This document shows, piece by piece, positions 3,178 through 18,690 of a stretch of 23,336 bases of DNA. Every line of letters starts with the position of its first letter. Within the stretch, counting starts at the first letter, position 1. Origin of the DNA: a virus; the IMG/VR virus record IMGVR_UViG_3300048927_000149, positions 1-23,336 of that record; one strand, written 5' to 3'. A program made the translations under genes and the position numbers. The notes below the pieces were generated by a model. That model saw only the letters and a program-made list of their open reading frames with translations. It was not told the origin of the DNA and ran no database searches.

Positions 3178-3205
3178 GAAAGAAAGGCCCGCTTGCGCGG
3201 GCCTT
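3178..3205 (-). terminator. Rho-independent terminator upstream of the tape measure gene
   Basis: Perfect 9-bp stem AAGGCCCGC / GCGGGCCTT (3184-3192 and 3197-3205). Read on the minus strand it has a GCAA tetraloop and is followed by TTTCTTTC. It lies between the lipoprotein stop (3222) and the tape measure ATG (3163). Confidence 0.8.
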
Positions 3206-3221
3206 GTCTCGGTCTGCTGGG

Positions 3222-3653
3222 CTACTGAATCACTCCCAGACAGTTCTTGTTGAAGTAATCCGTGAACGCACGTTGCGTCCCCACCCCTGTTCGCTCCAGC
3301 GCCCTTCGCTTATCCAGCGCACGCTCAAGCGTGTACGCCTCGATCTCCTGGGCGCTCTTGTCAGGGTAGATCGTTGCAAACCTCCGCTGAGACTCCGCCA
3401 CCCACTTCTTCCACAGCTCTACATCGCCCATTTTCAGGGTGGCGCCGGTGCAGGTCACAACAGCGGTGATATCTGTGTCCGGTAGTGGCCGGGCCTTATC
3501 TGCTGCGGGCGCATCGCCAGGCGCGGGCTTTCCTGCCCCCGTGGAAGCCGCCTCACTGCTCTCCGGCGGCTCTACCCTCGGTGCAGCTGGCTGTTCCTGT
3601 CGCGAGCAGGCGCAAAGCAGCAACAATGAAATCGCAATCCATTTTTTGTCCAC
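3222..3653 (-). CDS. Small phage lipoprotein in the tail operon
   Basis: A 143-residue predicted lipoprotein. It begins at a GTG preceded by AAGGA about 8 bases upstream. The N-terminus is a classic type II signal: basic MDKK, hydrophobic core WIAISLLLL, then lipobox LCAC with Cys16 as the lipidated residue. The next residue is Ser, which by the +2 rule favours the outer membrane. A Pro/Ala/Glu-rich linker (about 20-60) precedes a mostly helical domain (60-143) with two cysteines (in VTCTG and NKNCLG). I do not recognise the family. Its place between tail genes, followed at once by a terminator, recalls moron lipoproteins. Lambda Bor, T5 Llp and other phage lipoproteins block superinfection or alter the host surface, so superinfection exclusion is a reasonable but unproven guess. 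Confidence 0.75.
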   Translation of the reverse strand: MDKKWIAISLLLLCACSRQEQPAAPRVEPPESSEAASTGAGKPAPGDAPAADKARPLPDTDITAVVTCTGATLKMGDVELWKKWVAESQRRFATIYPDKSAQEIEAYTLERALDKRRALERTGVGTQRAFTDYFNKNCLGVIQ

Positions 3654-3708
3654 ACGATGGTTCCTTGGTCAGAGCCTTGATTCTTACATGGGACAATGGT
3701 GGCTCGAT

Positions 3709-4470
3709 CTAGGCGGGAACCTCTTCGAACTCCATGTATCCTGTGAAGTACTGTCGGCTGATGTTTTCCGCGCTCGGAAGCTGGGTCGGGTAGCCGTAGA
3801 GCGCAGACCGAGCCGCAAGCTGCGGGTTGAAGGCCTTCGTGTCCATCTCGCGGTATTGAGGAATGACACAGGATCGGCGTCGCCCAGAAAGCGCCGCCCC
3901 GACCGTTTCCCAGTCTCTCCCGTTCAAACCGCCGCCGCGCACAACGTCCGTAGCCCGGCCCGACAGGTTGCAGCTCAGCCTGCGGTACAGCGCACCGGGA
4001 ACCGTGTTGACCTGGCCACCCTTCGTACGCGCGTGCACGCTGGTGTCGATCATGGCCACCGCCCAGCCGTCGGTGATCCCCACGTCCACAGCCTGGAAGA
4101 TCGCGATCTCGCCTACATCCACGTTCGTTGCGGTCGTGGCAATCTCGACCGACACCGTCGACAGCAGTGGAGCCTCCTCGGGAAAGAGCCAGGCGCACAC
4201 GCTGCCGTCCGGCAATCGCACCGTGGTGCCGGTCGCGCCGGCGGCGGTGACTGACACGCCCGGGGGCAGAGTGAGGCCAAGCACGGCGACGATGGCCGGC
4301 ACCACGGCATCGGCGAGCGTGATCGTGATCGCCAGCGAACCCGTGCGCCGGATCCGCGATGCCCGCCCTGGCTTGCCATCGAAGAGCGCCGAGCCCTGAT
4401 CCGTGCTGAGCCAGGTTCCACCGGTGAGGGTGACTGTCTGGACAGCCGGCATTCCATATCCAATCAGCAC
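3709..4470 (-). CDS. Tail-associated structural protein (253 aa), function unknown
   Basis: I do not recognise a named family. The start is GTG at 4470, with GGGGAT upstream at good spacing and only four bases after the preceding stop; an in-frame ATG at 4452 is the alternative. The first 150 residues look beta-rich: short alternating hydrophobic/polar strands with Thr, Val and Gly (TVTLTGGTWLST, SLAITITLADAVVPAI, TVSVEIATTATNVDV). This is common in tail-tip, fibre-base and decoration proteins. The C-terminal third has charged and aromatic segments and ends near YFTGYMEFEEVPA. It is transcribed directly after the 655-residue tip-like protein, and the two are probably partners in the same tail structure. 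The position before rather than after the tape measure gene is unusual. The role is inferred from context only. Confidence 0.65.
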   Translation of the reverse strand: MLIGYGMPAVQTVTLTGGTWLSTDQGSALFDGKPGRASRIRRTGSLAITITLADAVVPAIVAVLGLTLPPGVSVTAAGATGTTVRLPDGSVCAWLFPEEAPLLSTVSVEIATTATNVDVGEIAIFQAVDVGITDGWAVAMIDTSVHARTKGGQVNTVPGALYRRLSCNLSGRATDVVRGGGLNGRDWETVGAALSGRRRSCVIPQYREMDTKAFNPQLAARSALYGYPTQLPSAENISRQYFTGYMEFEEVPA

Positions 4471-4474
4471 GTCT

Positions 4475-6442
4475 TCATCCCCACACCGTCAGCACCACGT
4501 CCCCCGTGGCCGGGTTGCGTTCCACGCGCCGCACCAGCACCGGCTTGCCGTCTTCGAGGCCGTAGCGGCTGTAGGTGAGCCTGCCAATTTGCCCCGGCAG
4601 CGGCGCCAGATCCTGATCACCACGCACCGCGAGCTGGTAGAAGTAGCGCTGCACCTGGTACATGCCAAGGATGCGGTCGATCTCAACCTGAGCATCGGCT
4701 GCGTGCCAGAACAGCGAGACGACAGGATCGGCAGCTTCCGCCCGCTGGTAGTGAGCGTGCAGCGGGCCTGCCCCGTATACCTGCCCCCGGAAAAGCCCGG
4801 TCAGCTCGTCGCGGCGGGGCTGCGGCACGTCGAGCACGTCGGTGACCAGGTCGGATGCAGCCAGCGCCTGACCATTGGGCCGGTATGCCATGCGCCGGGT
4901 CAGGTTCGGTGCATCGTCGGGCACCATGACCAGATCAGCCGCCAGATCCGCCTCGGACAGGTCGAAGGCAAATTGGCCCACGTGCGCCTCGGGAGCGGTC
5001 ACGCGCACGAAGCGCAGCACACCTGCTGGATCTTGATAGCAACCTGCCCCGTAGCTGGGCAAGATCGCGTTCAGCGCCGCTCGGCCCGTGATGGCCGTTC
5101 CAGCGTAGTAGCCGATGCCCAGATAGCCCGAGGCCAGGTCAATCACCGCGCAGTCACTCGATGACCAGGCAGCGCGATCAAGGCGCGCCATTATGTCGCC
5201 CACCGCCTGCTCCAACCGGGCCGGCATCATGCCCGCACCGATGCTGGAAGCGTCAACAACGACCGGCGTCACGGGCGGGGACTTCAACAGCAGCTGCTGA
5301 CCGTCCGGCGCCTCGTTATAGGTGTTGGTCTCCATCAGGTCGCCGCGATCCATCACGGCGTTGATGTAGACCCGGCCGTCCGCCACAAACATGGAGGTCG
5401 CATCCGAGTTGGCCCCCATCGCCGGGATGCTGGCCACTGCGCCGATCACCACCGGCTGCGGCTTCCACGCCAGCGAGGCAATATTCGGCAGGAACACGCC
5501 CCGGTTGATTGTCTCATCCAGATAGTCGTGCGCGTCGCGCAGGTGCAGCGTCTTCGTGCCGTCGTCGTTGACCTCGATTTGCTCGATCGCACAGCGGAAC
5601 GCGGGCATGGCGTCGGCTCGCATGCCGCTTTCAGAGGCCAGCAGGATCTGCACCGAGCTGCCAGAGGCCCCCGTTCCTGCCATTCCGTCCAGCAGGCCAT
5701 CTGCATCGACCACGACACACTCGGCTGCCGCAGCCTGGGACACCGGATCACCGCCCCATGGCCAGAACGCCAGTTCCTGTATCAGGTTGACGCCCTCGGC
5801 CACCAACCCCTCATAGCGGGCGTTTGCGGGGCTATCGCCCGGGGCCGAAAGCCAGTCAACGTCGGCCAGGCGCGTGGCCGTGGCCGCTGCAGCAGGGAAC
5901 CGCCAACCGGCCGCCGCCGCTTCGCTACGCGGCCCCCACTGTCCAGCATTGACCGCCAGGCAAAGACCGCCGGCCTTGGTGGCACCCAACGATGCGGCGA
6001 AGTACAGCGGCCCGGACAGCTGCAGCTCCTGCAGATGCACCTGCACACCGTTGAGGAACAGGCGCAGCTGACGCGGGGTGCCGAACACCACCTGCAGCCC
6101 GACAATGTCGCCATGGGCGATCACCGGCAGCCCGGTTGCGATCCCTCCGCCAGCCTGCAGCAGGCGCCCGGCACCAAGGTCCCAGCCGATGCTGGCAACT
6201 TCTGCGCCCAACGCCTTGTTCAGCGCCGCCGAAGCCGTGGCGAACCCGACAAGTGCGGACATGGTGTCGTCGCCCCAAGCAGCGAACTCGACGCCCACCG
6301 TGCCGGCATCGAGACTGAAATCGGAGCGTGCATGGCTGGCCAGCGCAGTGGCGCCGGTGGTGGCCAAGGTCAACCCACCATCACGGGCGGCGAGCAGCGG
6401 GCCGATGGGGGTGGCGGCGAAGCGCCCGAAAGTGTCGGTCAT
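4475..6442 (-). CDS. Tail tip/fibre-like protein with possible N-terminal SPRY-type domain
   Basis: A 655-residue structural protein starting three bases after the stop of the chaperone frameshift frame. Residues about 25-172 read like a SPRY/B30.2 (concanavalin-like) beta-sandwich: paired strands around SALVGFATAS and SIGWDL, then GDIVGLQVVF, LRLFLNGVQV, LYFAASLG and LAVNAGQWG. These correspond to the G-D-x-I-G, F-x-N-G and W/F-x-A-V-S-L-G signposts of that fold. The C-terminal half (about 280-655) resembles the tip/hub-like tail proteins in which a beta-rich body (TLHLRDAHDYLDE, GLFRGQVYG, GRLTYSRYGLEDGKPVLVRRVE) carries a receptor-binding or attachment part. SPRY-like modules in phage tails usually serve carbohydrate or protein binding, so host recognition is a fair inference. 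The fold assignment comes from reading the sequence by eye; the structural role is fairly sure, the exact component is not. Confidence 0.7.
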   Translation of the reverse strand: MTDTFGRFAATPIGPLLAARDGGLTLATTGATALASHARSDFSLDAGTVGVEFAAWGDDTMSALVGFATASAALNKALGAEVASIGWDLGAGRLLQAGGGIATGLPVIAHGDIVGLQVVFGTPRQLRLFLNGVQVHLQELQLSGPLYFAASLGATKAGGLCLAVNAGQWGPRSEAAAAGWRFPAAAATATRLADVDWLSAPGDSPANARYEGLVAEGVNLIQELAFWPWGGDPVSQAAAAECVVVDADGLLDGMAGTGASGSSVQILLASESGMRADAMPAFRCAIEQIEVNDDGTKTLHLRDAHDYLDETINRGVFLPNIASLAWKPQPVVIGAVASIPAMGANSDATSMFVADGRVYINAVMDRGDLMETNTYNEAPDGQQLLLKSPPVTPVVVDASSIGAGMMPARLEQAVGDIMARLDRAAWSSSDCAVIDLASGYLGIGYYAGTAITGRAALNAILPSYGAGCYQDPAGVLRFVRVTAPEAHVGQFAFDLSEADLAADLVMVPDDAPNLTRRMAYRPNGQALAASDLVTDVLDVPQPRRDELTGLFRGQVYGAGPLHAHYQRAEAADPVVSLFWHAADAQVEIDRILGMYQVQRYFYQLAVRGDQDLAPLPGQIGRLTYSRYGLEDGKPVLVRRVERNPATGDVVLTVWG

Positions 6443-6445
6443 GGG

Positions 6446-7110
6446 TCACCCAAGAGAGTCGAACCAGTCCTCTGCCTCGTCCTCGTCGGATCGGGGCACA
6501 AGGGCGTCTAGGTAGTGCTGCATGCCGCGCTTTGTGCCGCCCTGGCTATGTGCAGCGGTGATGTACGCGACGAAGGCGGCGGGCTTCTGGTGGACGCTCA
6601 CCGGGTCAATGGGGTTTCGCTTGTGAAACTCCCACCACCACAGGAACTCCCGGCGCGACATGGTGGATCGCAACTCTGCCACTGTGCGATGCAGATGGCC
6701 GGCTAGGACATGCCAGAACCAATCCTCGCCGCGCAGCCTTAGCCGTTTCCCGCTTCTTCCCGCTGGGCCTCAGCATCACTTCCGAAGCCGGCGTGCTTGA
6801 GCGCGATAGCCTGCAGACTGGCCGCAACCTTCGGCTTCAGCTCGCCGGCCTGTTGTTCACTGAGTACACGCTTGCCGTTCTCATCGCAGATCGTGGCTGC
6901 GATCAGCTTGGCACGATCGGCTGTGCTCCACAGCTGGCGGAACTCGGTATCCGGCAGCGCGCGCACGAAGAATTCCGCCTTGGTGCCGTCCGGCAGTTCG
7001 ATGGTGTCCGGCTGCACGTCCTTTGTGGCGAACATACCGGCGCTGGTGAACGTCTGAAGGATGCTCACCGCCCCTGCCAGGGCTTCGTTACTGTCGTTGG
7101 TCTTGCTCAC
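6446..7110 (-). CDS. Tail assembly chaperone G-T fusion made by -1 ribosomal frameshifting
   Basis: The long form of the tail chaperone, equivalent to lambda gpGT, which coats the tape measure and recruits tube subunits. Ribosomes start at the G ATG (7110) and slip back one base at GGGAAAC (6745-6751). They then continue in the overlapping frame to the TGA at 6446. The product would be 221 residues: 122 from G plus 99 from the T frame. The T frame is open across the G stop and reads RLRLRGEDWFWHVLAG, then a second helical part around MSRREFLWWWEFHKRN, and ends EDWFDSLG. Tryptophan-rich GEDWFWHV and REF..WW sections are typical of phage T domains. The T frame has no ribosome-binding site at its first ATG (6682), so expression by frameshift is the sensible reading. 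The overlap geometry and heptamer are seen directly; efficiency is not known. Confidence 0.85.
6739..7110 (-). CDS. Tail assembly chaperone G (short form)
   Basis: The 123-residue in-frame product, equivalent to lambda gpG, which with the G-T form binds the tape measure during tail assembly and is absent from the finished tail. It starts with MSKTNDSNEALAGAVSILQT. It contains the usual chaperone core (TIELPDGTKAEFFVRALPDTEFRQLW), in which a beta-hairpin with a Pro-Asp-Gly turn is followed by helices, and it ends with a charged tail (AQREEAGNG). The stop TAA comes five bases beyond the AAC of the slippery heptamer. The gene follows the tail tube gene but is separated from it by about 125 bases holding a strong hairpin. 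The expected order tube, G, GT is kept; the tape measure, normally next, is displaced by three genes. Confidence 0.85.
   Translation of the reverse strand: MSKTNDSNEALAGAVSILQTFTSAGMFATKDVQPDTIELPDGTKAEFFVRALPDTEFRQLWSTADRAKLIAATICDENGKRVLSEQQAGELKPKVAASLQAIALKHAGFGSDAEAQREEAGNG
6745..6751 (-). promoter_or_regulatory. Slippery heptamer for -1 frameshift (GGGAAAC)
   Basis: On the minus strand the zero frame reads GCG GGA AAC GGC TAA, so G GGA AAC is a perfect X XXY YYZ heptamer in the correct phase, close to lambda's GGGAAAG. It lies five codons before the end of the G gene including the stop. The -1 frame then stays open for 99 codons. Confidence 0.88.
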
Positions 7111-7184
7111 GGGCCGTTTCCTTGAATGGCGACAGGGCGCGCGGGCCGCGCACGGCTAACACGCGGAGGATCCGCACGCCCTGC

Positions 7185-7211
7185 CAAAGAGAAGGCCCAC
7201 CGAAGTGGGCC
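7185..7211 (-). terminator. Rho-independent terminator between tail tube and chaperone genes
   Basis: Perfect 7-bp stem GGCCCAC / GTGGGCC (7194-7200 and 7205-7211). In the minus-strand RNA it has a UUCG tetraloop, one of the most stable loops known, followed by TTCTCTTTG. It lies in the 126-base gap between the tail tube stop (7237) and the G start (7110). The rest of that gap holds no gene that I can support. Confidence 0.75.
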
Positions 7212-7236
7212 GAAAGAGAGAGCGCCGTTGTTGCGG

Positions 7237-7710
7237 TCAGGGCGTCGGGCGGTGGGTGGTGACAGCGCCCGAGCCACGGATGGTCATCGCGGCCTTCCAC
7301 ACATCGTTGTCGGCCACCGTCACAGCAAAGTTCTGCACGAAGCCATTGAACTGCTTCGACACAACCGTCGTCGGCGGGGTGATGACACCATCGACTGCCA
7401 CCGGCTTGGCCGCGCCAGCCGTTTCGCTGGCTGGCGCGGTGACCAGGAAGTTGACCACCGCGCCAGTGCGGTGCAGTTCCTCCAGCGCCTCGGAATCGAC
7501 GGAGTCATAGATCACCTCGATGCTCGTGCTGCCGGTCGCCTTGCGACCAGCGACGAACTGGTCCCAATCGTCATCGAAGTCCGAGATATCGATTTCCGAG
7601 GCCTGGCCATCAGGGAAGCCGATCGTACGGACACGGGTCACCTTGATGACCTCCGCCTCGCCGATGGCGATGAACAGCTGGGTGTGCTTCGACTTGAGTA
7701 CCTGTCCCAT
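7237..7710 (-). CDS. Major tail tube protein
   Basis: The subunit that polymerises around the tape measure to form the tail tube of a non-contractile or flexible tail. The start (ATG 7710, MGQVLKSKHTQLFIAIG) is set by AAGGAAACCCCT just upstream; an extension further upstream would run into the preceding gene region and has no start signal. At 157 residues it is in the usual range for lambda V/HK97-type tube subunits without a C-terminal Ig domain. It shows the expected sequence of strands (TQLFIAIGEAEVIKVTRVRTIGFP, STSIEVIYD, VVNFLVTAPAS, FNGFVQNFAVTVADNDVWKAAMTIRGSG), including the late 'nnvwka..tir.sG' segment common in tube proteins. It is unusually isolated: terminator-like hairpins lie on both sides (7747-7767 and 7185-7211), as if expressed as a separate mRNA segment. 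Confidence 0.85.
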   Translation of the reverse strand: MGQVLKSKHTQLFIAIGEAEVIKVTRVRTIGFPDGQASEIDISDFDDDWDQFVAGRKATGSTSIEVIYDSVDSEALEELHRTGAVVNFLVTAPASETAGAAKPVAVDGVITPPTTVVSKQFNGFVQNFAVTVADNDVWKAAMTIRGSGAVTTHRPTP

Positions 7711-7746
7711 AGGGGTTTCCTTGCGTTGTGCCCGTCGCCGGGTATG

Positions 7747-7767
7747 AAAAAGGCCCCTTGCGGGGCC
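7747..7767 (-). terminator. Rho-independent terminator upstream of tail tube gene
   Basis: Perfect 6-bp stem GGCCCC / GGGGCC (7752-7757 and 7762-7767). In minus-strand RNA it has a GCAA tetraloop and is followed directly by five T residues. It sits between the DUF3168-like gene stop (7790) and the tail tube ATG (7710). Confidence 0.8.
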
Positions 7768-7789
7768 GGTGGATTGCCGTTGAGTTGGG

Positions 7790-8152
7790 TCAGCGAAGCT
7801 GCAGCAGTCGAGCGTCGAAGGAGATGCCGAACGCCCCTGTATCGTCGTCATCGGGCGGAGGGTTGTAAGACTCGATGCTTCCAACTGTCTCGACAGCATC
7901 GCGAACTGCCACCGCAGCAGCGTTGGCTTTGGACGTCGATTTCCCCCAAACCGTCAACCGGACGCGCCAGCCATCGGCGGGCGGTCGCTCGGAAAGCAGT
8001 TTGGTTGGTGAGCCGCCAACAACATCCCACGTGGCGTAAGGCAATGCGGTTTCCTGCGGCGCCGTAGAGGGGAAAACACGGACGGGATCACCAAACAGTC
8101 TCCGCACGGCCTCATCACCCTGCAGCAGCTCTTGGATAAGCGGCACCATCAT
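7790..8152 (-). CDS. Tail completion protein, DUF3168-like
   Basis: A 120-residue protein of the head-tail joining set, placed exactly where lambda U / HK97 gp10-neighbouring tail terminators sit. It starts at ATG 8152, overlapping the previous stop as ATGA, with AAGGGGGTGG upstream; a second ATG one codon later is an equal alternative. The sequence fits DUF3168: N-terminal helix (VPLIQELLQGDEAVRRLFGDPVRVFPS), then ALPYATWDVVGG, a strand pair in WRVRLTVWGKSTSKANAAAVAVRDAVE, and a C-terminal beta segment (GAFGISFDARLLQLR). Members of the family commonly end the tail tube or join it to the head completion proteins. Confidence 0.8.
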   Translation of the reverse strand: MMVPLIQELLQGDEAVRRLFGDPVRVFPSTAPQETALPYATWDVVGGSPTKLLSERPPADGWRVRLTVWGKSTSKANAAAVAVRDAVETVGSIESYNPPPDDDDTGAFGISFDARLLQLR

Positions 8153-8652
8153 TTCCACCCCCTTGCCTTCATTACCCGGTCGATAGCCGCGCGGGTCTGG
8201 TCGACAATCAACTGCGCCGCCTTGGGCCCGTTTGCCTCGGCAGCTGGCGTCAGGAACGGCTTTGCTGCCATCTTCTTCGTGCCAAATTCCAGATACCGCC
8301 AGTAGCTGGCCCAACCTGCCTGCACGTAGACCTTGCCAACGCGGCGCTGCCGGCGGTTCCTCTTGGTGTTGGCATACTTGGCGCGTTTGCCAGTCTTAAC
8401 GCCAACGGTGAAATACTCGCCACCCGGGCCGACGCCGGCCCTGTTCCGATTGCGCGCATTGGCCCTGCGCACCACGATCTGTGTGGCCAGGAAGCCGCTG
8501 GCACGCGGCACTCGCGCGCGTGCCGCGTCGCGGATCAGATTGCCGCCCCGACGCAGTGCGGTCTGCAGTGGCTTTCCCTGCAGCTCTACCGGCAATGCCT
8601 TCAACGACGACAGGAGCCCGTCAAGGCCATGGATTTCGATCTGCTCAGCCAT
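8149..8652 (-). CDS. HK97 gp10-like tail-completion (minor tail) protein
   Basis: A 167-residue basic protein of the HK97-gp10 family, which acts at the head-tail interface or at the tail terminator. The N-terminus (MAEQIEIHGLDGLLSSLKALP) and the following helix with TALRRGGNLIRDAARARVPRASGFLA are characteristic of the family. So is the C-terminal segment with YWRYLEFGTKKMAAKPFLTPA, whose 'EFGT..M.A.PFL.PA' pattern is its best mark. The middle (VKTGKRAKYANTKRNRRQRR) is strongly basic. It overlaps the head-closure gene by 8 bases and the next gene by 4, so translation is probably coupled. Confidence 0.87.
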   Translation of the reverse strand: MAEQIEIHGLDGLLSSLKALPVELQGKPLQTALRRGGNLIRDAARARVPRASGFLATQIVVRRANARNRNRAGVGPGGEYFTVGVKTGKRAKYANTKRNRRQRRVGKVYVQAGWASYWRYLEFGTKKMAAKPFLTPAAEANGPKAAQLIVDQTRAAIDRVMKARGWK

Positions 8653-9396: not shown

Positions 9397-9399
9397 GGG

Positions 9400-9813: not shown

Positions 9814-9825
9814 GATCGTCTCCGA

Positions 9826-9849
9826 GGGACGCCCCATCGTGGGGCGCCC
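9826..9849 (-). terminator. Terminator-like hairpin after the capsid gene (weak)
   Basis: Seven-bp stem CGCCCCA / TGGGGCG (9830-9836 and 9840-9846) with a 3-base loop, extended by GGG/CCC around one bulged base. It lies between the capsid stop (9871) and the next start (9813). The minus-strand sequence after it lacks a clear T run, so it may be an mRNA-protecting hairpin rather than a terminator. Confidence 0.4.
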
Positions 9850-9870
9850 CTCTGTTCGTGGGCCGCGCGG

Positions 9871-11115
9871 TTAAGCCGTGGCGCCGTGCTTGAAGGTCTT
9901 CACCGCGCCGCCCACGTCGACCAGGTTGCCGCCAGAGCGCATCCACGCCATGAAGCCAACCTGCCCCTTCTTGACGTAGGCCGAGTCGTTGAAGCGGAAC
10001 AGGGTCACCGCCATCACGTCGCGGATCTTGTAGTAGCTGAAGTCGCCGAACGCGATCGACGTGGCACCTGCGGCCGGGGCCGGCGCGTGCTGGTTGATCT
10101 GGATATCGCGGTTCAGCAGACGATCCGGCGCACCGCCCGGATTGCCCTGCTCGTAGCCCGGCACAAAGATCGGCCGGCCCTGGTCGTCCTTCACCTTGCG
10201 GATCAGCTTCAGCATGTCGTCGTGGAACATCCACTTGGCCAGCTGGCGATACGCCGGATCGACGCTGTGTTCCAGGTCCACCAGGTCGTCGTAGGTGATG
10301 ATCGGAAGCGCCGAAACCGCACCAATCTTGCCCACGGCCGCTGCGGTGAAAGCGCCCATCGGCTGACCCACGCCGGTGCCGACGGTGTAGTTGCGATTGG
10401 TGACTCGGCCCAGGCGGGTCTGCAGACGCTTCTCGATGAACCCGGCGATATCGGCGGTGCTGTCCTGCAGCAGCTCCCACGGCACGGTGACCACTTTCGA
10501 ACTGTACTTGTAGACCTGCAGGCCCTTGGTGCCGAAGGCCACGTCCTGATCGGTCGCCGACTGGTTCTCGGCGACCAGCTCACCCTCTTCCGAGGTGCCA
10601 TCGCTGGTCGGGTACTGCATCGGCTCGCCGCCGGCCGTGCTGAACACGTCGGCGACCTGGCGCATGCCGCCGAACGCCTTCAGAGCGTCCAGGATCTGCT
10701 GGGCCAGCGTGGTAGGCACGGTGTAGCCGCCCTGCTCAGGATTCACGGCCGGGTTGCCCGACATGGCGGCATTGACCTGCTTCCAGTCCTCGGCGTTCAG
10801 GGCGCTGTCGCCGCCGCGTGCCCAGCGGTCGAACAGGCGCTCTTCGTTGGACAACTCCCGGCCGCCGCGGTTGGCGGTGTCGTGTTCACGCACGCCCTGC
10901 TCGCGCAGCGCTTCATCGGCCGTCAGGTCCATGACCTTCTGATGGCGCTCAATGGCCGCATCAATGCGCTCGATCTCGGCCACGTTCTCGTCGTACTTCG
11001 CCTGGTTCTCCGGCGTCCACTTGTTGCCGTCGCCGGTGCTGGTGTCCAGCAGGTTGCGGGTGTCCTTTGCCAGCGCGGTGCGGCGCTCCCGCTCGGCCTG
11101 AATGTTGAAGGGCAT
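9871..11115 (-). CDS. Major capsid protein, HK97 gp5-like
   Basis: The 414-residue precursor of the icosahedral shell. The start is ATG 11115, preceded by GAGGAAATCACCA. Residues 1 to about 105 form a charged helical domain (AERERRTALAKDTRNLLD, ENVAEIERIDAAIERHQKVM) that matches the HK97 delta/scaffold domain removed by the phage protease. The shell fold begins near NPEQGGYTVPTTLAQQIL and continues with FSTAGGEPMQYPTSDGT, the E-loop-like region, SSKVVTVPWELLQDSTADIAGFI, GTGVGQPMGAF and DLVDLEHSVDPAYRQLAKWMF. It ends with FGDFSYYKIRDVMAVTLFRFNDSAYVKK and a last strand. The gene follows its maturation protease, as in HK97. It is preceded by one strong terminator and followed by a weaker hairpin. 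Confidence 0.95.
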   Translation of the reverse strand: MPFNIQAERERRTALAKDTRNLLDTSTGDGNKWTPENQAKYDENVAEIERIDAAIERHQKVMDLTADEALREQGVREHDTANRGGRELSNEERLFDRWARGGDSALNAEDWKQVNAAMSGNPAVNPEQGGYTVPTTLAQQILDALKAFGGMRQVADVFSTAGGEPMQYPTSDGTSEEGELVAENQSATDQDVAFGTKGLQVYKYSSKVVTVPWELLQDSTADIAGFIEKRLQTRLGRVTNRNYTVGTGVGQPMGAFTAAAVGKIGAVSALPIITYDDLVDLEHSVDPAYRQLAKWMFHDDMLKLIRKVKDDQGRPIFVPGYEQGNPGGAPDRLLNRDIQINQHAPAPAAGATSIAFGDFSYYKIRDVMAVTLFRFNDSAYVKKGQVGFMAWMRSGGNLVDVGGAVKTFKHGATA

Positions 11116-11134
11116 TGGTGATTTCCTCGTGTCG

Positions 11135-11157
11135 AAAAAAAACCGCCTTTCGGCGGT
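11135..11157 (-). terminator. Strong rho-independent terminator just upstream of capsid gene
   Basis: Perfect 6-bp stem ACCGCC / GGCGGT (11142-11147 and 11152-11157). In minus-strand RNA it has a GAAA tetraloop followed by about eight T residues. It is the best terminator in the window by tail and loop, and it lies between the protease stop (11184) and the capsid start (11115), inside the late operon. Confidence 0.85.
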
Positions 11158-11183
11158 CGGGATGAACTGCGGGCGGGAGTCGC

Positions 11184-13212: not shown

Positions 13213-14882
13213 CAGTCGATCACCACGAAGCCTTGTTGGGTTGTGCCAGTGTCCCGCGCCTGCATGGCGCGGCCCATGGCCATGATTAGCGCCACCGCGC
13301 CGTCTATCTTGTTTTCCATCTTTTCCTTACGCGGATAGACGTGCTCCTTCGCGTCCACCCTCGCCACGACATTGCCCATCATCCAGGTCATCGCCGCGTT
13401 GCCGTCGTGCCACAGGCGGCGCGACAGGATCAGCGCCTCCACTTCCTTCATCGGCTCAGATAGGTTGCGCACTGACTGCGCCATTTCGACAACCGGCAGG
13501 CTCTCCTGCTCCAAACGGGTCATCAGATACGCCGCCTGGGCCGGATCGAAGGCAATGTCCCGCACGTCGATGCCTTGCGCCGCAAGCTCCTTCAGTTCCT
13601 CTTCGATGAAGGCGTAGTCGGTCATATTTCCCGGCGTGGCCACGATCAGGTCATCCAGCAGGAACTGCTGGTACTTCTCGTTCTCCTCCACCGCAGATTC
13701 GGGAACATAGAAGCGCGGGATTGCGTAGAAGCTGTCGCCCTTCTCGAACAGCAGCACGACCGCGGCCACGTCCAGCTTCGACGCCAGATCGACACCGACC
13801 CAGCAGGGGCATCCAGCAAAGTCCGAGATCTCAAACCGACGTTTCTGCCGCTGCCAGGCCAGCATGTTCATCCATGCCAGCTTGGCGCCCACCCAGTCGT
13901 TCAGGTGCTTGGTGCGGTACGCACTTTGCTTGCTGGCAGAACGCTTTGCCTTTGCAAGCATGTCGACCAGAAACTGCTCGAACACGGACACCCCGAAATT
14001 CGGGTTGGCCTTTCGGAGCACCTCCGGATCGTCCCAGCGGTCGCCCTCATCAATGCAGTAGATCGCGGCGAACACAGTCTCGTCAGTCACTTCCCCGCGC
14101 AGAATGCGGACCGCATCGCTCCGCATCTCGAAGCACGGGCCGGACAGGTTGGTCCCCGCCGTGGTGATGATCGACAGCAGGGGCTGCTCGCGCGCGCCCA
14201 TGCCGGTTTCCATCGCATCGACCATGTGGTCGTCGTCGTGCTCGTGGTACTCGTCCACAAGCGCCGCGTGCGGGCTGGAGCCGTCGCCCGGCTTGCCGAT
14301 CATCGTCTCGAACTTCGACATGTCCTCCATGACGAAGAGGGGGCCGGGGTTCTTCGGGTTGCCGGCCTGCTCAATCCCGAACCGCGAGCGCAGCGCCGGC
14401 AGCTTCTGAACCATTTGCCAGGCCGGCCGGAACACCTCGTATGCCTGTTTCTCGCTGGTAGCGCCTGAGTACACCTCGGCGCCGGCCTCACCGTCAGCAC
14501 AGAACAGATACAGGCCGCGCGCGGCCAGCCGGAGCGACTTGCCGTTCTTGCGGGCGATCTCCTCGTAGGACCGGCGGAACCGCCTGTGCCCGGTCTTCTT
14601 GTGGACCCAGCCGAACAAGTTGCACTCGATGAACCGTTGCCAGGGCTCCAGCACCAGCAGCTTCTTCTGGGAAGCCCACTTGCCCTTGGTGTGCGGCATC
14701 TTCTCCATGAAGCGCACGGCACGATCAGCCTTGTCGGCGTCGTACTTGTAGGGCCAGCCGGCCCCCTTGCGCTTCAGGTCGTCAAGGAACCGCTGGCACG
14801 CCAGCCGGATATATTCGCCGGCGATGATCTTCCCAGCCATCACGCCCTTGGCGTAGGCCTTGGCTGATTCGGTCGGCGTCAT
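13212..14882 (-). CDS. terL: Terminase large subunit (ATPase and nuclease)
   Basis: The 556-residue packaging motor subunit that cuts the concatemer and pumps DNA into the prohead. The ATPase half has a variant Walker A (ARKNGKS, residues 110-116), Walker B with the catalytic pair (ALVDEYHEH, Asp210 and Glu211) and the ITTAGT coupling motif (239-244). The RNase-H-like nuclease half has metal-binding Asp365 in GVDLASKLD, a second acid in AFDPAQA (Asp446) and a third in KIDGAVALIMA (Asp528). The protein resembles the Terminase_1 family. It starts three bases after the small-subunit stop and overlaps the portal start by one base. Confidence 0.95.
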   Translation of the reverse strand: MTPTESAKAYAKGVMAGKIIAGEYIRLACQRFLDDLKRKGAGWPYKYDADKADRAVRFMEKMPHTKGKWASQKKLLVLEPWQRFIECNLFGWVHKKTGHRRFRRSYEEIARKNGKSLRLAARGLYLFCADGEAGAEVYSGATSEKQAYEVFRPAWQMVQKLPALRSRFGIEQAGNPKNPGPLFVMEDMSKFETMIGKPGDGSSPHAALVDEYHEHDDDHMVDAMETGMGAREQPLLSIITTAGTNLSGPCFEMRSDAVRILRGEVTDETVFAAIYCIDEGDRWDDPEVLRKANPNFGVSVFEQFLVDMLAKAKRSASKQSAYRTKHLNDWVGAKLAWMNMLAWQRQKRRFEISDFAGCPCWVGVDLASKLDVAAVVLLFEKGDSFYAIPRFYVPESAVEENEKYQQFLLDDLIVATPGNMTDYAFIEEELKELAAQGIDVRDIAFDPAQAAYLMTRLEQESLPVVEMAQSVRNLSEPMKEVEALILSRRLWHDGNAAMTWMMGNVVARVDAKEHVYPRKEKMENKIDGAVALIMAMGRAMQARDTGTTQQGFVVID

Positions 14883-14885
14883 GGA

Positions 14886-15266
14886 TCAGAACTCGTCGAA
14901 TGGGTTGCCCTCCGGGGTCTTCTCGGTCCCCAGCTTCTGGCGGTCGGCTGGGGTCAGCCCCAGCCGCGCCAGGCAGCCGATCAGGTGGGAGTACTTGGCC
15001 GCGACGAACTCGCCGCGGTTGGCACGGAACTCGGAAAGCAGCGATGACGCCACCTCCATGATGAAACGGTCGGCGCTTGTCAGGACACCAGGCAGGGCGC
15101 ACTTCTCCAGCTCCTTCCAGACCACCGCGACTTCGGCCGGAAGGTGTGCCGGCGCCTTGCCCAATGGCGAATTCGCCTTGGGCGCTTCCTTCTTGTAGCG
15201 CTGCGGATCCTTCTTGGTCGCGCCTTTCAGCTCGGCCAGTTCCCTCGGCTGTCGATGGCGAGCCAT
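14886..15266 (-). CDS. terS: Terminase small subunit (P27 family-like)
   Basis: A 126-residue DNA-recognition subunit that selects the packaging start. The start is ATG 15266 (MARHRQPRELAELKGATKKD), with AAAGGGGAGG just upstream. The opening 'LKGATKKDPQRY' and the later SADRFIMEVASSLLSEFRANRGEFVAAKYSHLIGCLARLGLTPADRQKL agree with P27-type small subunits, which have a basic N-terminus and a helical bundle ending in 'LGLTP..R..L'. The 160 bases before it hold no gene but strong repeats (see the cos candidate). Confidence 0.92.
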   Translation of the reverse strand: MARHRQPRELAELKGATKKDPQRYKKEAPKANSPLGKAPAHLPAEVAVVWKELEKCALPGVLTSADRFIMEVASSLLSEFRANRGEFVAAKYSHLIGCLARLGLTPADRQKLGTEKTPEGNPFDEF

Positions 15267-15301
15267 CGGACCTCCCCTTTCTGAAATTCAAATTCTGCGG
15301 A

Positions 15302-15424
15302 CGCGAGAAGAAAGGGGGGCGCGCGTATCGTCGCGAGAGGGCGCCGAACTTTGACCCTCCCCCCCGGTCAAATGTTAATATTTCGTTAATTTATGCGATT
15401 GTGCACGTTCCACGCTCGTGGAAC
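15302..15424 (-). other. Candidate cos / packaging-recognition region
   Basis: The 15267-15426 gap between HNH and small terminase genes has no ORF but is dense in symmetry. GTTCCACG-CT-CGTGGAAC (15407-15424) is a perfect 8+8 dyad directly after the HNH stop. TTTGACC / GGTCAAA (15350-15356, 15366-15372) is a perfect 7+7 inverted repeat around a C-rich loop. Between them is an AT-rich tract with GTTAAT twice, 11 bases apart (15374, 15385). CGCGAGA occurs twice, 30 bases apart (15302, 15332). In many cos phages the site lies between the HNH gene and the terminase genes, and the lambda cos region likewise combines a dyad, repeats and a bend. The function is inference; the ends are not seen. Confidence 0.5.
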
Positions 15425-15426
15425 CA

Positions 15427-15753
15427 TCAATCCCGCGCTCCTCGGCCGAATCCGCCGTTCTCCAGCGCTGTTTTCGTGCTGTGGCACGGCCCGCACAGGG
15501 GCTGCAGGTTGCTGTCAGCGTTGTTGGCATCGTCGCCGTCGATGTGGTCGACCTCAGTGGCTGCCCGCACCCTTCCCTGCCCCGCACAGCACCTGCACAG
15601 CGGCTCACGGGCCAGCACCACAGCTCGGATCCGCCTCCAGAGCGCTGAGTTCGTTGGCAGCGCGCGGCGGGCCTGCCTCTTGCGCACCTGGGCGCTGGTT
15701 TCTTTGTAGGGACGCCAACCTGCCGCTCGGTGCTGCGGTGGCCTGACAGGCAT
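15427..15753 (-). CDS. HNH endonuclease of the packaging module
   Basis: A 108-residue HNH nuclease that works with the terminase at cos in many cos-type phages. The motif is complete: CRCC near 53-56, EVDHIDGDDANNADSNLQPLC (His70, Asn82) and CGPCHSTKTA (Cys87, Cys90 and His91). The Cys pairs would hold a structural zinc. A basic N-terminus (residues 1-43, e.g. RKRQARRALP) probably contacts DNA. It starts one base inside the preceding stop (TGATG) and ends 3 bases before the dyad at 15407-15424. Confidence 0.92.
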   Translation of the reverse strand: MPVRPPQHRAAGWRPYKETSAQVRKRQARRALPTNSALWRRIRAVVLAREPLCRCCAGQGRVRAATEVDHIDGDDANNADSNLQPLCGPCHSTKTALENGGFGRGARD

Positions 15754-16043
15754 CAGTACGGGTTCCCGTCCAAGTCCACGCGCGGAGACTCGGCACCTTC
15801 GTCCGGAACCGGTGTGCCAGCCTCCTCCCCCAACAGCTGCGCGACAGCTTGGACCAGCATGCCGACATGCGCCGCCAGCTCTGCGATCTGCTCGCCCTGC
15901 TGCTCGATGCCCCCGACCAGACGGTCAATGCGAGCGTCTGTGCTGCCATCGATGCGCGCGGCCAGGGCGGCGTCGGCGACTGCGCGCGCAGCTTGCTCGG
16001 CGACCAGTGCTTCCGCCAGCGCTTCAATCCGTGCAACGTCCAT
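15753..16043 (-). CDS. Small coiled-coil protein, unknown function
   Basis: A 96-residue protein. The chosen start is ATG 16043 (MDVARIEALAEALVAEQAAR) with GAGGG six bases upstream; translation could also begin six bases earlier at TTG. Residues 1-75 are one long Ala/Glu-rich helix with heptad hydrophobics (IEALAEALV..., IDRLVGGIEQQGEQIAELAAHVGMLVQAVAQLL), suggesting a parallel coiled coil. The tail (about 76-96) is acidic and Pro-rich and ends DLDGNPY. It overlaps the next upstream gene by 20 bases and the HNH gene by one. I do not recognise a family; the position suggests an accessory packaging role. Confidence 0.7.
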   Translation of the reverse strand: MDVARIEALAEALVAEQAARAVADAALAARIDGSTDARIDRLVGGIEQQGEQIAELAAHVGMLVQAVAQLLGEEAGTPVPDEGAESPRVDLDGNPY

Positions 16044-16206
16044 CAGCAACCCTCGTTGTTCGAAGTACCAGGCCGCGGCGTATCCACCGCTCGACCCGAT
16101 CCCAGTCCGGTTCCTTGCTCGTAGCTTTGGCGAACCACACCACTGAGGCCAGGTAGCACCTCAGCCACCAGCGCATGCGGACGGTAGCCGTCACTGCTCC
16201 AGCCAT
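16024..16206 (-). CDS. Short conserved-looking phage protein (60 aa), unknown
   Basis: A 60-residue protein starting at ATG 16206, one base inside the preceding stop. The body MRWWLRCYLASVVWFAKATSKEPDWDRVERWIRRGLVL has an aromatic/basic helix followed by a second helix, a pattern I associate with short proteins near phage terminases. It is basic (many Arg) and has no membrane segment of full length, though the WWLRCYLASVVWF helix is hydrophobic. Function unknown. Its tight coupling on both sides suggests it is real. Confidence 0.65.
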   Translation of the reverse strand: MAGAVTATVRMRWWLRCYLASVVWFAKATSKEPDWDRVERWIRRGLVLRTTRVADGRCTD

Positions 16207-16568
16207 CAGAACTCCTCCACTGCCCAGCCGCCGCCGTCCCGCTTGGCCTTGACCTTCACCGCGATGAAGCGGAACGGATACATGGACGCGGCGACCTTGA
16301 TCTTGGCCCTTGCATCGTCCTGCCAATGGCCCTTCACTTCGTGGCAGGCCATGACACCGTCGGCCTCCATCACGGCAAAGTCCGGGGTGTAGAACGTGTT
16401 GTCTGCCAGGCGCAGCTTCAGCCCCTCGAACCTGTGCCACAGGATCTCGCCGGCGGCCTGCAACGCGCGCAGCCGTTCGGCATACGCGGCTTCTGTCTTG
16501 TTCATCTCGCCGGTCTTCAACCGGCCAAGCGCCAGGATGCGGCGCCTCGCGCCATCTGGGCTACCCAT
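16206..16568 (-). CDS. PD-(D/E)XK-type phage endonuclease (DUF1064-like)
   Basis: A 120-residue small nuclease. Catalytic layout is seen: an acidic helix residue in NKTEAAYAERL (Glu26), then FYTPDFAVMEADG (Asp63), and CHEVKGHW (Glu77, Lys79). After it come DARAKIKVAASMYPFRFIAV, in which the last helix and strand of the fold fit. This is the DUF1064-like group of phage nucleases related to VSR and endonuclease I, perhaps acting on junctions or branched DNA during packaging or recombination. The start is ATG 16568, with GAGG six bases upstream. It is the first gene after the terminator at 16634-16661 and the first of four overlapping genes running to the HNH. Confidence 0.75.
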   Translation of the reverse strand: MGSPDGARRRILALGRLKTGEMNKTEAAYAERLRALQAAGEILWHRFEGLKLRLADNTFYTPDFAVMEADGVMACHEVKGHWQDDARAKIKVAASMYPFRFIAVKVKAKRDGGGWAVEEF

Positions 16569-16633
16569 CAGAGGCCTCGGCAGCTGTCACGATCAGCACA
16601 GGTCATCCCCTTTCGATCTGCTTGAAAGAAGTT

Positions 16634-16661
16634 GCCCGGCCAGCGACTTCGCTGACCGGGC
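16634..16661 (-). terminator. Terminator-like hairpin after beta-rich gene
   Basis: Near-perfect 11-bp stem GCCCGGCCAGC / GCTGACCGGGC (16634-16644 and 16651-16661, one G-U type mismatch) with a 6-base loop. The minus strand continues AACTTCTTTC. It begins 6 bases after the stop at 16668. The remaining 60 bases to the nuclease start hold no supported gene. Confidence 0.7.
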
Positions 16662-16667
16662 ACAGCC

Positions 16668-17255
16668 TTAGTTCGCCAGAAGGATCAGCTGGAACTTGGC
16701 GTTCACACCCCACGAGCCGCCACCGCCGCTCGACGCGCCCAGGCTAAGGCTGAAGCTGGTGCCTGCGCCGAAAGACGAACTACCCCTGAAATCGATGCCC
16801 AAACCGCCACCGAACTCCTGGCGAACGCTGCCGGACCACTGCTCGTTGAACTTGTAAGTGACACCGACGCTTGCCGGCGAAAGGTCGATCGTGGTGTCCT
16901 TGAACTGGACCTTGGCGGAGCCGGAGAGGTTTCCGTTGCTGTCGAAGGTGCCGCTCAGACGAGCTTCCTCGGTGCCCACGCCGTAGCCGATCGTTCCGGA
17001 AACGCGCTCGTTCTCGTAGTTCAGACGCAGGAAGGAGTCGTCAGCGCCGACCTTCACGAATGCGTTGCCCTTCTTTGCTTCCCCGCTGACAGCAGTGCCG
17101 TTGATGTTGCCGGAGAAGCTCGCACCTACCGGGCGGCCATCCTTATTGATGACACTGCCGCTGACCTGCCAGCCACTCTCGTCCATCGGTTGATCGATCG
17201 TGCCGCCGCCTGCGCGCTGCATCACTTTGTCGTCCATGTGCTCGTTCTTGCTCAT
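16668..17255 (-). CDS. Unrecognised beta-rich protein in its own hairpin-flanked cassette
   Basis: A 195-residue protein of no family I recognise. The start is ATG 17255 (MSKNEHMDDKVMQRAGGG), with AAGGAG eight bases upstream. After a polar 28-residue lead there are about 12-14 short alternating strands (WQVSGSVINKDG, GASFSGNINGTAVSGEA, AFVKVGADDSFLRLNYE, RVSGTIGYGVG, EARLSGTFDSNGNLSGSAKVQF, SVGVTYKFNEQWSGSVRQEF). A Gly/Ser-rich repeat-like end follows (SSFGAGTSFSLSLGASSGGGG, VNAKFQLILL). The alternation of polar and hydrophobic residues looks like an amphipathic beta barrel or beta solenoid. No signal peptide is visible, which argues against ordinary outer-membrane export. It lies between the spanin genes and the packaging genes with a hairpin on each side, the pattern of a moron. 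Confidence 0.7.
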   Translation of the reverse strand: MSKNEHMDDKVMQRAGGGTIDQPMDESGWQVSGSVINKDGRPVGASFSGNINGTAVSGEAKKGNAFVKVGADDSFLRLNYENERVSGTIGYGVGTEEARLSGTFDSNGNLSGSAKVQFKDTTIDLSPASVGVTYKFNEQWSGSVRQEFGGGLGIDFRGSSSFGAGTSFSLSLGASSGGGGSWGVNAKFQLILLAN

Positions 17256-17326
17256 TGAATTGCTCCTTGTTGTTGCCATTACGGCGGTAATCGGTGCCAC
17301 GGCCTATCCGGGGCACCAAAACGGCA

Positions 17327-17349
17327 GAGGGCCGCACATGGCGGCCCTC
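17327..17349 (-). terminator. Terminator-like hairpin after the spanin genes (weak)
   Basis: Perfect 9-bp stem GAGGGCCGC / GCGGCCCTC (17327-17335 and 17341-17349) with a 5-base loop. On the minus strand a T run (TTTT) comes only after TGCCG, so termination may be partial. It lies 26 bases downstream of the Rz stop and about 70 bases before the beta-rich gene. Confidence 0.5.
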
Positions 17350-17375
17350 AAGTAAGAGTGGGATTCTGGTGGTGG

Positions 17376-17846
17376 CTACTGCTGATCGCGATCCGCTTGG
17401 ATCACGGCTTGGCAGGCGCGGACGTGGTCTTCGGCATCGGTGACGATTCGAATAGCAGCTCCGACAACCTCTGGACGTAGTTCGGCGTGCGCATCACGTT
17501 CGATGGCGCCGGCGGCGGCTTCGGACAGGCGAGCGGTGTGGCAGGTGGCGAGGTCGTCGCGCAGGCGGAGATTGCCGCTGCGCAGGCCAGCCACAACAGC
17601 AGCAGGGACGGTCTCGGCCGCAGCCCGGTCTTCTTCATGCTTGGCTCCAATGTCGGCCAGCTGCAGGGCCTTGCTCTGCTCGGTGGCACGGGTCTTATTC
17701 ACCTGGTCGGCGATTGCCTCAGCACCGGCCGCGCGTTGCTTGGCGGCTACACCCTCAGATCGGTCACCGCGCCATGCCCAGCCAGCGCCGAACATGGCTG
17801 CGGACCAAACGACGAATGCGACGATGGCGATAGCGATGCGATTCAC
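17376..17846 (-). CDS. Rz: Inner-membrane spanin (Rz-like)
   Basis: A 156-residue i-spanin that, with Rz1, fuses inner and outer membranes at the end of lysis. I start it at GTG 17846 (MNRIAIAIVAFVVWSA), which overlaps the endolysin stop as GTGA and has a purine-rich AGGGGC upstream; an in-frame ATG at 17861 would overlap the endolysin by 19 bases. Residues about 4-25 form one membrane anchor. The rest is a periplasmic helical coiled coil (AAKQRAAGAEAIADQVNKTRATEQSKALQLADIGAKHEEDRAA) of the usual Rz length. Rz1 lies entirely within it in another frame. Confidence 0.88.
   Translation of the reverse strand: MNRIAIAIVAFVVWSAAMFGAGWAWRGDRSEGVAAKQRAAGAEAIADQVNKTRATEQSKALQLADIGAKHEEDRAAAETVPAAVVAGLRSGNLRLRDDLATCHTARLSEAAAGAIERDAHAELRPEVVGAAIRIVTDAEDHVRACQAVIQADRDQQ
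17402..17638 (-). CDS. Rz1: Outer-membrane spanin lipoprotein (Rz1-like), nested in Rz
   Basis: A 78-residue o-spanin encoded wholly inside Rz in a different frame, as in lambda. The start is ATG 17638 (MKKTGLRPRP). A basic start and the hydrophobic core SLLLLWLACAAAI lead to the lipobox ISAC (Cys26, next residue Ala, so outer membrane). The mature part is short and Pro-rich (TTSPPATPLACPKPPPAPS) and then polar, exactly the o-spanin pattern. It would bind Rz through its C-terminus. The signal-plus-lipobox-plus-proline combination within an Rz gene leaves little doubt. Confidence 0.88.
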   Translation of the reverse strand: MKKTGLRPRPSLLLLWLACAAAISACATTSPPATPLACPKPPPAPSNVMRTPNYVQRLSELLFESSPMPKTTSAPAKP

Positions 17847-18307
17847 GACCGCCCCTCGCACATCCGACGCTCAGCCGCTCGACGGTTCACCAGGCCCTGC
17901 ACGCGTTTCCCGCCTGCATAGACCCAACGGTCCAGCTCTGCGCACCAGGCTGAGGCTGGTCGCCCGCTGTTGATCTTGCGCACCAGCGAGGAGCCACAGG
18001 CTGCGGTGGTCCCGACGTTGTAGGACCAGCTCAGCAGTGCTGCCCACTCGTGCTGTTGCAGCGGGACATGGATGCAGGCCTGTATGCCGGTGAGGTATTC
18101 GCCCAGGCGGCTGTTGAGCCGCGCAGCACACTCCGCCTCGGTGTAGTGCGCCTTGTCCGGCTTGTCCGTATCGCCGTAGCAGTACGTCGCAACACCGACC
18201 ATGTCGATGTAGGGCGTCGGTGCATAGCCCTCGCGCGGCTTGACCAGCACTGCGGCGGACAGGGCAATAACGGCCGCGGCAGTCCCGCCGATGATTTTCG
18301 CCCTCAT
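17843..18307 (-). CDS. SAR endolysin, T4/P21-type lysozyme (GH24)
   Basis: A 154-residue muramidase that cuts the glycan strands of the cell wall. It starts MRAKIIGGTAAAVIALSAAVLV: residues 4-22 form a weakly hydrophobic, Ala/Gly-rich signal-anchor-release segment, so the enzyme would be exported without holin, held inactive in the membrane and released later. The catalytic triad is in the classic spacing: Glu26 (REGY), Asp35 (YIDMVG) and Thr41 (VATYCYG), spaced 9 and 6 as in P21 R and T4-like lysozymes. Further marks are WAALLSWSYNVGT and NRRAAERRMCEG at the end. Several Cys residues (e.g. Cys43) could serve in activation by disulfide exchange. The start overlaps the holin stop as ATGA. Confidence 0.93.
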   Translation of the reverse strand: MRAKIIGGTAAAVIALSAAVLVKPREGYAPTPYIDMVGVATYCYGDTDKPDKAHYTEAECAARLNSRLGEYLTGIQACIHVPLQQHEWAALLSWSYNVGTTAACGSSLVRKINSGRPASAWCAELDRWVYAGGKRVQGLVNRRAAERRMCEGRS

Positions 18308-18531
18308 GCCTGCGCCCTCTGCCGCCACTCGCGGACCCAGCGCCACCCGAGGTAGGCGATCTGGCCAACGAGATAGACGATGGTCAACACCACCACCACG
18401 CGGTCTAGATCCGCGCCCGCAGCGACGGCGCCGGCGACGGTTACCGGCGGTGCGGCTTTGGCCACGGCACCGGCCGCAGTGCTGATGATCTCGTCCTTCA
18501 TGGTGGCCCCGTGACTAGTCCGGTTCGGCAT
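18304..18531 (-). CDS. Holin (two-transmembrane, possible dual start)
   Basis: A 75-residue membrane protein just upstream of the endolysin. One clear membrane segment is VVVVLTIVYLVGQIAYLGW (about 45-63); a weaker hydrophobic Ala/Gly stretch (17-40) could be the first. The C-terminus is short and very basic (RWVREWRQRAQA), as in holins. Two ATGs ten codons apart open it: MPNRTSH (18531, with GGGAGGGGC just upstream) and MKDEIIS (18501). The longer form adds Arg and His at the N-terminus, which resembles the lambda S107/S105 antiholin-holin pair, though I cannot show that both are used. The call rests on size, topology and position, not on a named family. Confidence 0.75.
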   Translation of the reverse strand: MPNRTSHGATMKDEIISTAAGAVAKAAPPVTVAGAVAAGADLDRVVVVLTIVYLVGQIAYLGWRWVREWRQRAQA

Positions 18532-18567
18532 AAGCCCCTCCCGGTTAATGGGTGCCCGCCCCTAGCG

Positions 18568-18627
18568 CCGGCTGGGCACGAGAGTTTGTCCGGCTGGGAC
18601 GCGGGCAAAGAAAAAGCCCCGGCTGGG
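18568..18627 (-). repeat. Three direct repeats of CCGGCTGGG in the late control region
   Basis: CCGGCTGGG occurs at 18568-18576, 18590-18598 and 18619-18627 (minus strand CCCAGCCGG), 22 and 29 bases apart, in the 159-base gap between Q and the holin. The third copy includes the loop side of the terminator hairpin. Three exact 9-mers within 60 bases are unlikely by chance. They lie where a phage Q-binding element or late promoter control site would be expected. Confidence 0.55.
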
Positions 18628-18636
18628 CCGGGGCTT
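18609..18636 (-). terminator. Strong terminator between Q and lysis genes
   Basis: Perfect 10-bp stem AAGCCCCGGC / GCCGGGGCTT (18614-18623 and 18627-18636) with a 3-base loop; on the minus strand it is followed by TTTTT. It begins 55 bases after the Q stop and ends about 80 bases before the holin start, the location of a tR'-like terminator that Q-type factors overcome. Confidence 0.85.
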
Positions 18637-18690
18637 GCGATTGGATGGTGACAATATTGCCGCCTATTTCGATGACCTTGGAAGTCATCG

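Follow-up and report, generated by a model that had tools for sequence, protein, structure and literature searches.

We analyzed a series of terminator-like hairpins in the late operon of the virus record IMGVR_UViG_3300048927_000149, which is 23,336 bases long and is referred to in its entirety as the window. The record represents a lambda-like phage of Stenotrophomonas type. All identified genes lie on the minus strand. Their order begins with an O-like replication gene, a Q-like antiterminator gene, holin, lysozyme and Rz, continues with a beta-rich gene, DUF1064, HNH, the terminase subunits, portal, a ClpP-type protease, capsid and connectors, and ends with the tail terminator, tail tube, assembly chaperone, further tail genes, a small lipoprotein-like gene and the tape measure. 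This is the lambda-type order of O-like gene, Q, holin, lysozyme, Rz, terminase, head and tail, and placement of the operon downstream of a Q-like antiterminator, as proposed in an initial annotation, is borne out by a phrog_127 match (E 7e-23). That annotation also described eight hairpins in the orientation of the late transcript. Each was recovered on the minus (coding) strand, no more than a few bases from its claimed position; the annotated starts and ends take in a few flanking bases. The principal features are given below in the order of transcription, with distances in nucleotides (nt) and with a d'Aubenton-Carafa-type score, d, for which positive values are terminator-like.

18691..19395, minus strand: Q-like late antiterminator gene, 234 amino acids with a Cys-rich, zinc-finger-like segment (phrog_127 'anti-termination protein Q-like', E 6.7e-23)
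18614..18636, minus strand: hairpin 1, 10-bp stem, CCA loop and tail TTTCTTT; d +29; Q/hairpin/holin position equivalent to lambda tR'
11141..11158, minus strand: hairpin 2, GACCGCC-GAAA-GGCGGTT followed by T6, ~26 nt before the major capsid start; d +25
9871..11115, minus strand: major capsid protein gene, HK97 fold family (PF05065, E 6e-67)
7752..7767, minus strand: hairpin 3, GGCCCC-GCAA-GGGGCC followed by T5, ~42 nt before the tail tube start; d +34
7237..7710, minus strand: tail tube gene, start placed at MGQVLK (PF16460, E 2e-26)
7194..7211, minus strand: hairpin 4, GGCCCAC-UUCG-GUGGGCC followed by TTCTCTTT, 3' of the tail tube gene; d +3.5, the weakest of the five
3184..3205, minus strand: hairpin 5, AAGGCCCGC-GCAA-GCGGGCCTT followed by TCTTTC, ~20 nt before the tape measure start; d +6
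2..3163, minus strand: tape measure gene, running off the record (phrog_2854, E 9e-90)

All eight sites consist of a G+C-rich stem with a short loop, at -12 to -26 kcal/mol. Inspection of the flanking sequence reveals a U-tract running from the stem base at 18614, 11141, 7752, 7194 and 3184, which is absent at 17327, 16634 and 9826. Judged by sequence, the first five sites look like intrinsic terminators and the remaining three are hairpins without an adjoining U-tract. That is to say, the original description of all sites as terminator-like holds for the five with positive d and an adjoining U-tract, and not for the other three. Similarly, the statement that most loops are GNRA or UUCG is correct for four of six sites, namely GAAA (11141), GCAA (7752 and 3184) and UUCG (7194), and fails for CCA (18614) and GAAG (16634).

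Two independent detectors, a simple scan and a hairpin-plus-tail scorer, both recovered the strong sites of the initial annotation. Using a hairpin score of <=-10 and a tail score of <=-2.5, seven matches were obtained on the sense strand versus a mean of 0.75 over 200 dinucleotide shuffles. Stricter cut-offs gave 5 versus 0.16 and 3 versus 0.02, and none of the 200 shuffles reached the observed sense count at any cut-off. Six of the seven sense matches are wholly non-coding, where non-coding sequence makes up 6.5% of the window; the antisense strand holds three weaker matches, every one within a gene. The hairpins are sense-strand, non-random features, as first proposed, and a chance origin is ruled out by the shuffles, the antisense control and the conservation described below. 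A 162-kb portion of a Stenotrophomonas genome, in which gene ends were not called, yielded 11 strong matches with similar stem, loop and tail. Searches for other identities returned no Rfam match at gathering score and no tRNA. The sites of the window have no strong antisense match, so bidirectional terminators were rejected for it; bidirectional sites were found only at some relatives' tape measure positions.

Conservation was examined in 164 loci plus the window by mapping homologues of the window genes and reading the gaps between them. Close relatives include a Stenotrophomonas prophage (L082, capsid 97% identical) and Achromobacter prophages (L083-L086, 77-82%). Across 152 loci there are 238 distinct sense matches versus 80 antisense, where the sense matches pile up at five boundaries and are rare elsewhere, and the antisense matches do not concentrate there. 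A U-tailed hairpin is present in 21/21 unique Q/holin regions (hairpin 1), 49/60 unique protease/capsid gaps (hairpin 2), 68/74 unique tail terminator/tail tube gaps (hairpin 3) and 79/79 unique regions before the tape measure (hairpin 5). At the site of hairpin 4 the stem occurs in 87/87 unique regions and is U-tailed in 49% by a strict cut-off; a separate count of tail tube/chaperone gaps, also at a strict cut-off, gave 43/91. The hairpins are conserved in relatives with identical gene order, the comparison by which the initial annotation had proposed to check them. No U-tailed hairpin was found in the 46 gaps between HNH and small terminase (TerS) genes. This gap carries a different feature in the window (15267-15426), a conserved block CGATACGCGCGCCCCCCTTTCTT...CAGAATTTGAATTT seen in an alignment of 36 unique relatives' sequences, which is a candidate cos site.

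To describe how the stems are maintained, alignments made without selecting for hairpins were used. At the capsid site, 98.1% of cells are paired. The U-tract there persists along with the stem, and in 36 sequences five of its columns show nothing but T. At the tail tube site, 99.2% of cells are paired, 51 cells are changed on both sides, and covariation is 0.594 versus 0.217 for shuffled alignments; the double-sided changes fall in two stem types and possibly reflect few events. Loops vary, with 7-31 kinds per site, while the stems pair, a tally that was made on detected hairpins. The pre-capsid hairpin is still present at 46-47% capsid identity (L087 and L088; Nitrosomonas and Thiosulfatihalobacter loci), and in the Achromobacter prophage L083 a hairpin lies ~20 nt before a tail tube gene of another Pfam family (PF08813). 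Both the pairing and the U-tract are conserved features of these positions.

What stays constant across relatives is the spacing to the start codon of the next gene, and not the distance from where the preceding gene ends. The distance to the start codon is 22-30 nt at the capsid site and 40-47 nt at the tail tube site. The behavior is clearest at the tape measure, where the hairpin lies 15-49 nt from the start codon and 56-865 nt from the upstream gene, the latter range being wide because of a variable gene slot. This slot is hypervariable, at 0-700 bp in relatives, and in the window it holds the following gene.

3222..3653, minus strand: small lipoprotein-like, moron-like gene just upstream of hairpin 5, with homologues in only 3 loci

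Hairpin 5 is retained when the slot is empty (L008, L003). Given the constant start distance and variable upstream distance, assignment of this hairpin to the upstream gene or moron was rejected. A broader form of this idea, in which every hairpin belonged, or still belongs, to an inserted gene as its terminator and survives passively, draws on the variable slot before hairpin 5, on antisense genes in the tail tube slot of five relatives and on the morons that HK97 carries at some equivalent places. We regard it as scarcely credible: none of the 79 unique regions lacks hairpin 5, whether or not the slot is occupied, and pairing maintained through sequence change is not passive persistence. The spacing at the tape measure would also suit leader elements, in which the hairpin frees the ribosome site and the U-tract serves as a site for ribosomal protein S1, so that the capsid, tail tube and tape measure are translated more strongly. 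This is very improbable, as the next start is ~83 nt away from hairpins 1 and 4, the tape measure is a low-copy protein, and the tail tube gene lacks a hairpin in five relatives. As a separate observation, two genes that are large and conserved, a phrog_8917 gene and a gene for a 253-amino-acid protein, occupy an unusual location, with the chaperone genes on one side and the tape measure on the other (window 3709-6442).

Inspection of the region behind Q reveals a further conserved element.

18670..18690, minus strand: conserved dyad CGATGACTTCCAAGGTCATCG directly 3' of Q, with pairing kept with different letters in 34 loci

Q, the dyad and hairpin 1 co-occur as one unit in 34/34 loci, which links hairpin 1 to the antiterminator gene. 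The centre of the dyad is a -35-like hexamer, and CAATAT lies 18 nt downstream of this central hexamer (window 18654-18690), conserved in 34 loci. These promoter-like hexamers form a weak pair, and a scan of the window found no consensus promoter. The dyad letters diverge in loci with divergent Q (L037-L041). This region, which separates the Q stop from hairpin 1, is possibly a late promoter with a site at which Q loads or binds. The phrog_127 match was obtained in 30 of 50 records, some of them weakly, and the Q-like protein has no significant match in Pfam or NCBIfam.

The three hairpins that lack an adjoining U-tract lie around the beta-rich gene and behind the capsid gene.

17327..17349, minus strand: stable hairpin between Rz and the beta-rich gene, -18.7 kcal/mol; d -15
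16634..16661, minus strand: 12-bp hairpin 3' of the beta-rich gene, accessory, with a U-run set apart from the stem; d -17
9826..9849, minus strand: post-capsid hairpin; d -20

The beta-rich gene has no good terminator on either side, given d of -15 and -17 at its two accessory hairpins. This contradicts the initial annotation. The gene itself was matched in only 8 loci. For the capsid gene the proposed bracketing is half right, where the upstream hairpin is terminator-like and the downstream hairpin is not. The 16634 hairpin looks, from its sequence, like an eroded form of a GTAG-tagged palindrome that is SMAG/REP-like in relatives (SMAG consensus, PMC2613905). Hairpins of this type in relatives end in CTAC, with the tag intact in L022, L082 and L005; the GTAG/CTAC tag is absent at 16634-16661 of the window, and a single occurrence of the exact arm pair was seen in one 4.6-Mb Stenotrophomonas genome, so high host copy number was not found. 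A REP/SMAG origin for all hairpins was rejected, as only 16634-16661 resembles such an element, and incompletely.

The hairpins without a U-tract bear on a role in mRNA processing or stability, in which the hairpins, U-tailed or not, set 3' ends or protect segments of the long late mRNA such that the capsid and tail tube segments decay independently. These hairpins are conserved too, notably behind the capsid gene, where a hairpin is found in 87% of relatives and is U-tailed in only 16%, and post-capsid hairpins recur in lambda, HK97, D3 and others. In contrast, stability alone does not require a strictly kept U-tract right after the stem, and the genes upstream of the capsid and tail tube hairpins encode low-copy products, so 3' protection would favor the wrong genes. 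We consider this role unlikely. Intrinsic termination is favored over a pure stability role because the U-tract is kept and is absent from nearby stable hairpins, because the sites have a single orientation, and because hairpin 1 is linked to Q.

Taken together, the five hairpins are probably ordinary intrinsic terminators that are passed by Q-antiterminated polymerase and insulate each structural unit. Under this model, terminators would stand at fixed unit boundaries, namely after Q (the tR' equivalent), before capsid, tail tube and tape measure, and behind the tail tube gene. Polymerase that acquires the Q-type antiterminator close to the late promoter would run through all five. Unmodified polymerase, arising from leakage past the first terminator, from promoters of accessory genes or from host read-through in a lysogen, would halt before the structural genes. 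Each structural unit would thereby be insulated and its expression made dependent on antitermination. Termination, override by Q and insulation as the selected benefit are what we infer from these patterns. In comparable operons, use of an antiterminator to get past terminators is known from experiments on AlpA and GafZ.

The unequal predicted strengths (d +3.5 to +34) raise the alternative of attenuators for stoichiometry, where a share of antiterminated polymerase would stop at each hairpin and grade expression along the operon. This appears improbable, since two of the three strongest hairpins precede the most abundant proteins, capsid and tail tube, opposite to a decreasing gradient, and a known antiterminator passes heterologous terminators (PMC7969949).

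To place the hairpins in a wider context, 15 phages of Gram-negative type (or cyanobacterial) and four Gram-positive phages were scanned. Within the first group, a U-tailed hairpin lies 18-40 nt upstream of capsid in 6, tail tube in 10 and tape measure in 7, and upstream of at least one of the three in 13; the phages with such hairpins include lambda, HK022, D3 and KS9, and the Q-type coliphages lambda, HK97, HK022 and N15 share the arrangement. None of the four Gram-positive phages has a U-tailed hairpin before capsid, tail tube or tape measure, and three of the four have one behind the tail tube gene.

Several observations count against insulation by antiterminated terminators. The Gram-positive control comprises four phages only, whose low G+C hampers the detection of stems. 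Incomplete antitermination would make it costly to have a terminator immediately in front of the proteins needed in the greatest amounts. In five relatives an antisense gene has been inserted ahead of the tail tube gene and the sense hairpin is missing, and one alternative head module, with only 11-13 nt before the capsid gene, also has none; the hairpins are therefore dispensable. Lastly, Achromobacter relatives without a phrog_127-type Q retain hairpins before capsid and tail tube, and a strict link of the hairpins to this type of Q was rejected on these grounds. The Achromobacter case is not decisive, because a 220-amino-acid open reading frame followed by a hairpin occupies the equivalent place.

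Two sets of genes noted at these loci merit separate description. The open reading frame at Q's place (L083:2684-3346) has a weak helix-turn-helix match and is followed by its hairpin 74 nt on, which makes it a candidate unrecognized late antiterminator on sequence grounds. The antisense genes at the tail tube hairpin site (L152, L157, L047, L048 and L046) encode 150-205 amino acids, are probably membrane proteins, and possibly represent superinfection-exclusion or other lysogeny genes.

More tentatively, insulation by terminators may extend to a general, selected design of late operons in Gram-negative siphophages, a proposal we hold to be somewhat doubtful. The hairpins would act as serial checkpoints such that each unit needs processive antitermination and lysogens stay free of capsid, tail tube and tape measure protein, and a hairpin would be kept or regained even after a gene is swapped for one of another family. 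If antitermination must indeed cross several terminators over ~16 kb, the operon offers a natural assay of the durability of Q modification; otherwise, the hairpins would hint at processing of late phage mRNA. Annotators should not read such hairpins as operon ends.

Comparison with known systems begins with lambda, which shares the Q-controlled late operon, tR' after Q, and hairpins at D/E, E/FI and I/J, where the capsid gene E and gene J are preceded by U-tailed hairpins at 21 nt and 25 nt, respectively. Ahead of lambda V and H the scan found no hairpin. A long distance separates lambda tR' from the upstream pR', whereas hairpin 1 starts 55 nt behind the Q stop. The HK97 record (NC_002167) marks a 'putative terminator' on either side of the major tail gene, upstream of the tape measure (immediately following a moron), downstream of the capsid gene and upstream of the protease, and our scan re-found most of these. 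HK97 differs in host and stem sequences, and its upstream head terminator stands before the protease and not directly before capsid. N15 (NC_001901) carries stem_loops labeled 'putative rho-indep. transcription terminator' on both sides of the capsid gene, behind the major tail gene and upstream of gene 21, the tail tip fiber gene equivalent to J; neither the major tail gene nor the tape measure gene has one marked in front of it. Regarding mechanism, AlpA of Pseudomonas aeruginosa acts on intrinsic terminators between a promoter and its first genes, which only antiterminated polymerase passes (PMC7969949); those tested terminators are in the leader and the operon is not phage structural. GafZ overcomes internal termination in a phage-like structural cluster, the Caulobacter gene transfer agent (PMC11150451), where termination is attributed to three 150-bp repeats that follow the first gene and not to short hairpins before each structural gene. 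No study of internal terminators before capsid, tail tube or tape measure genes was found in the open-access literature. The arrangement is known in kind, because the HK97 and N15 records already carry putative terminators at many such places, and the present comparison turns this scattered annotation habit into a testable positional rule, namely U-tailed hairpins, preserved by compensatory change, that lie ~20-45 nt ahead of where the capsid, tail tube and tape measure genes start.

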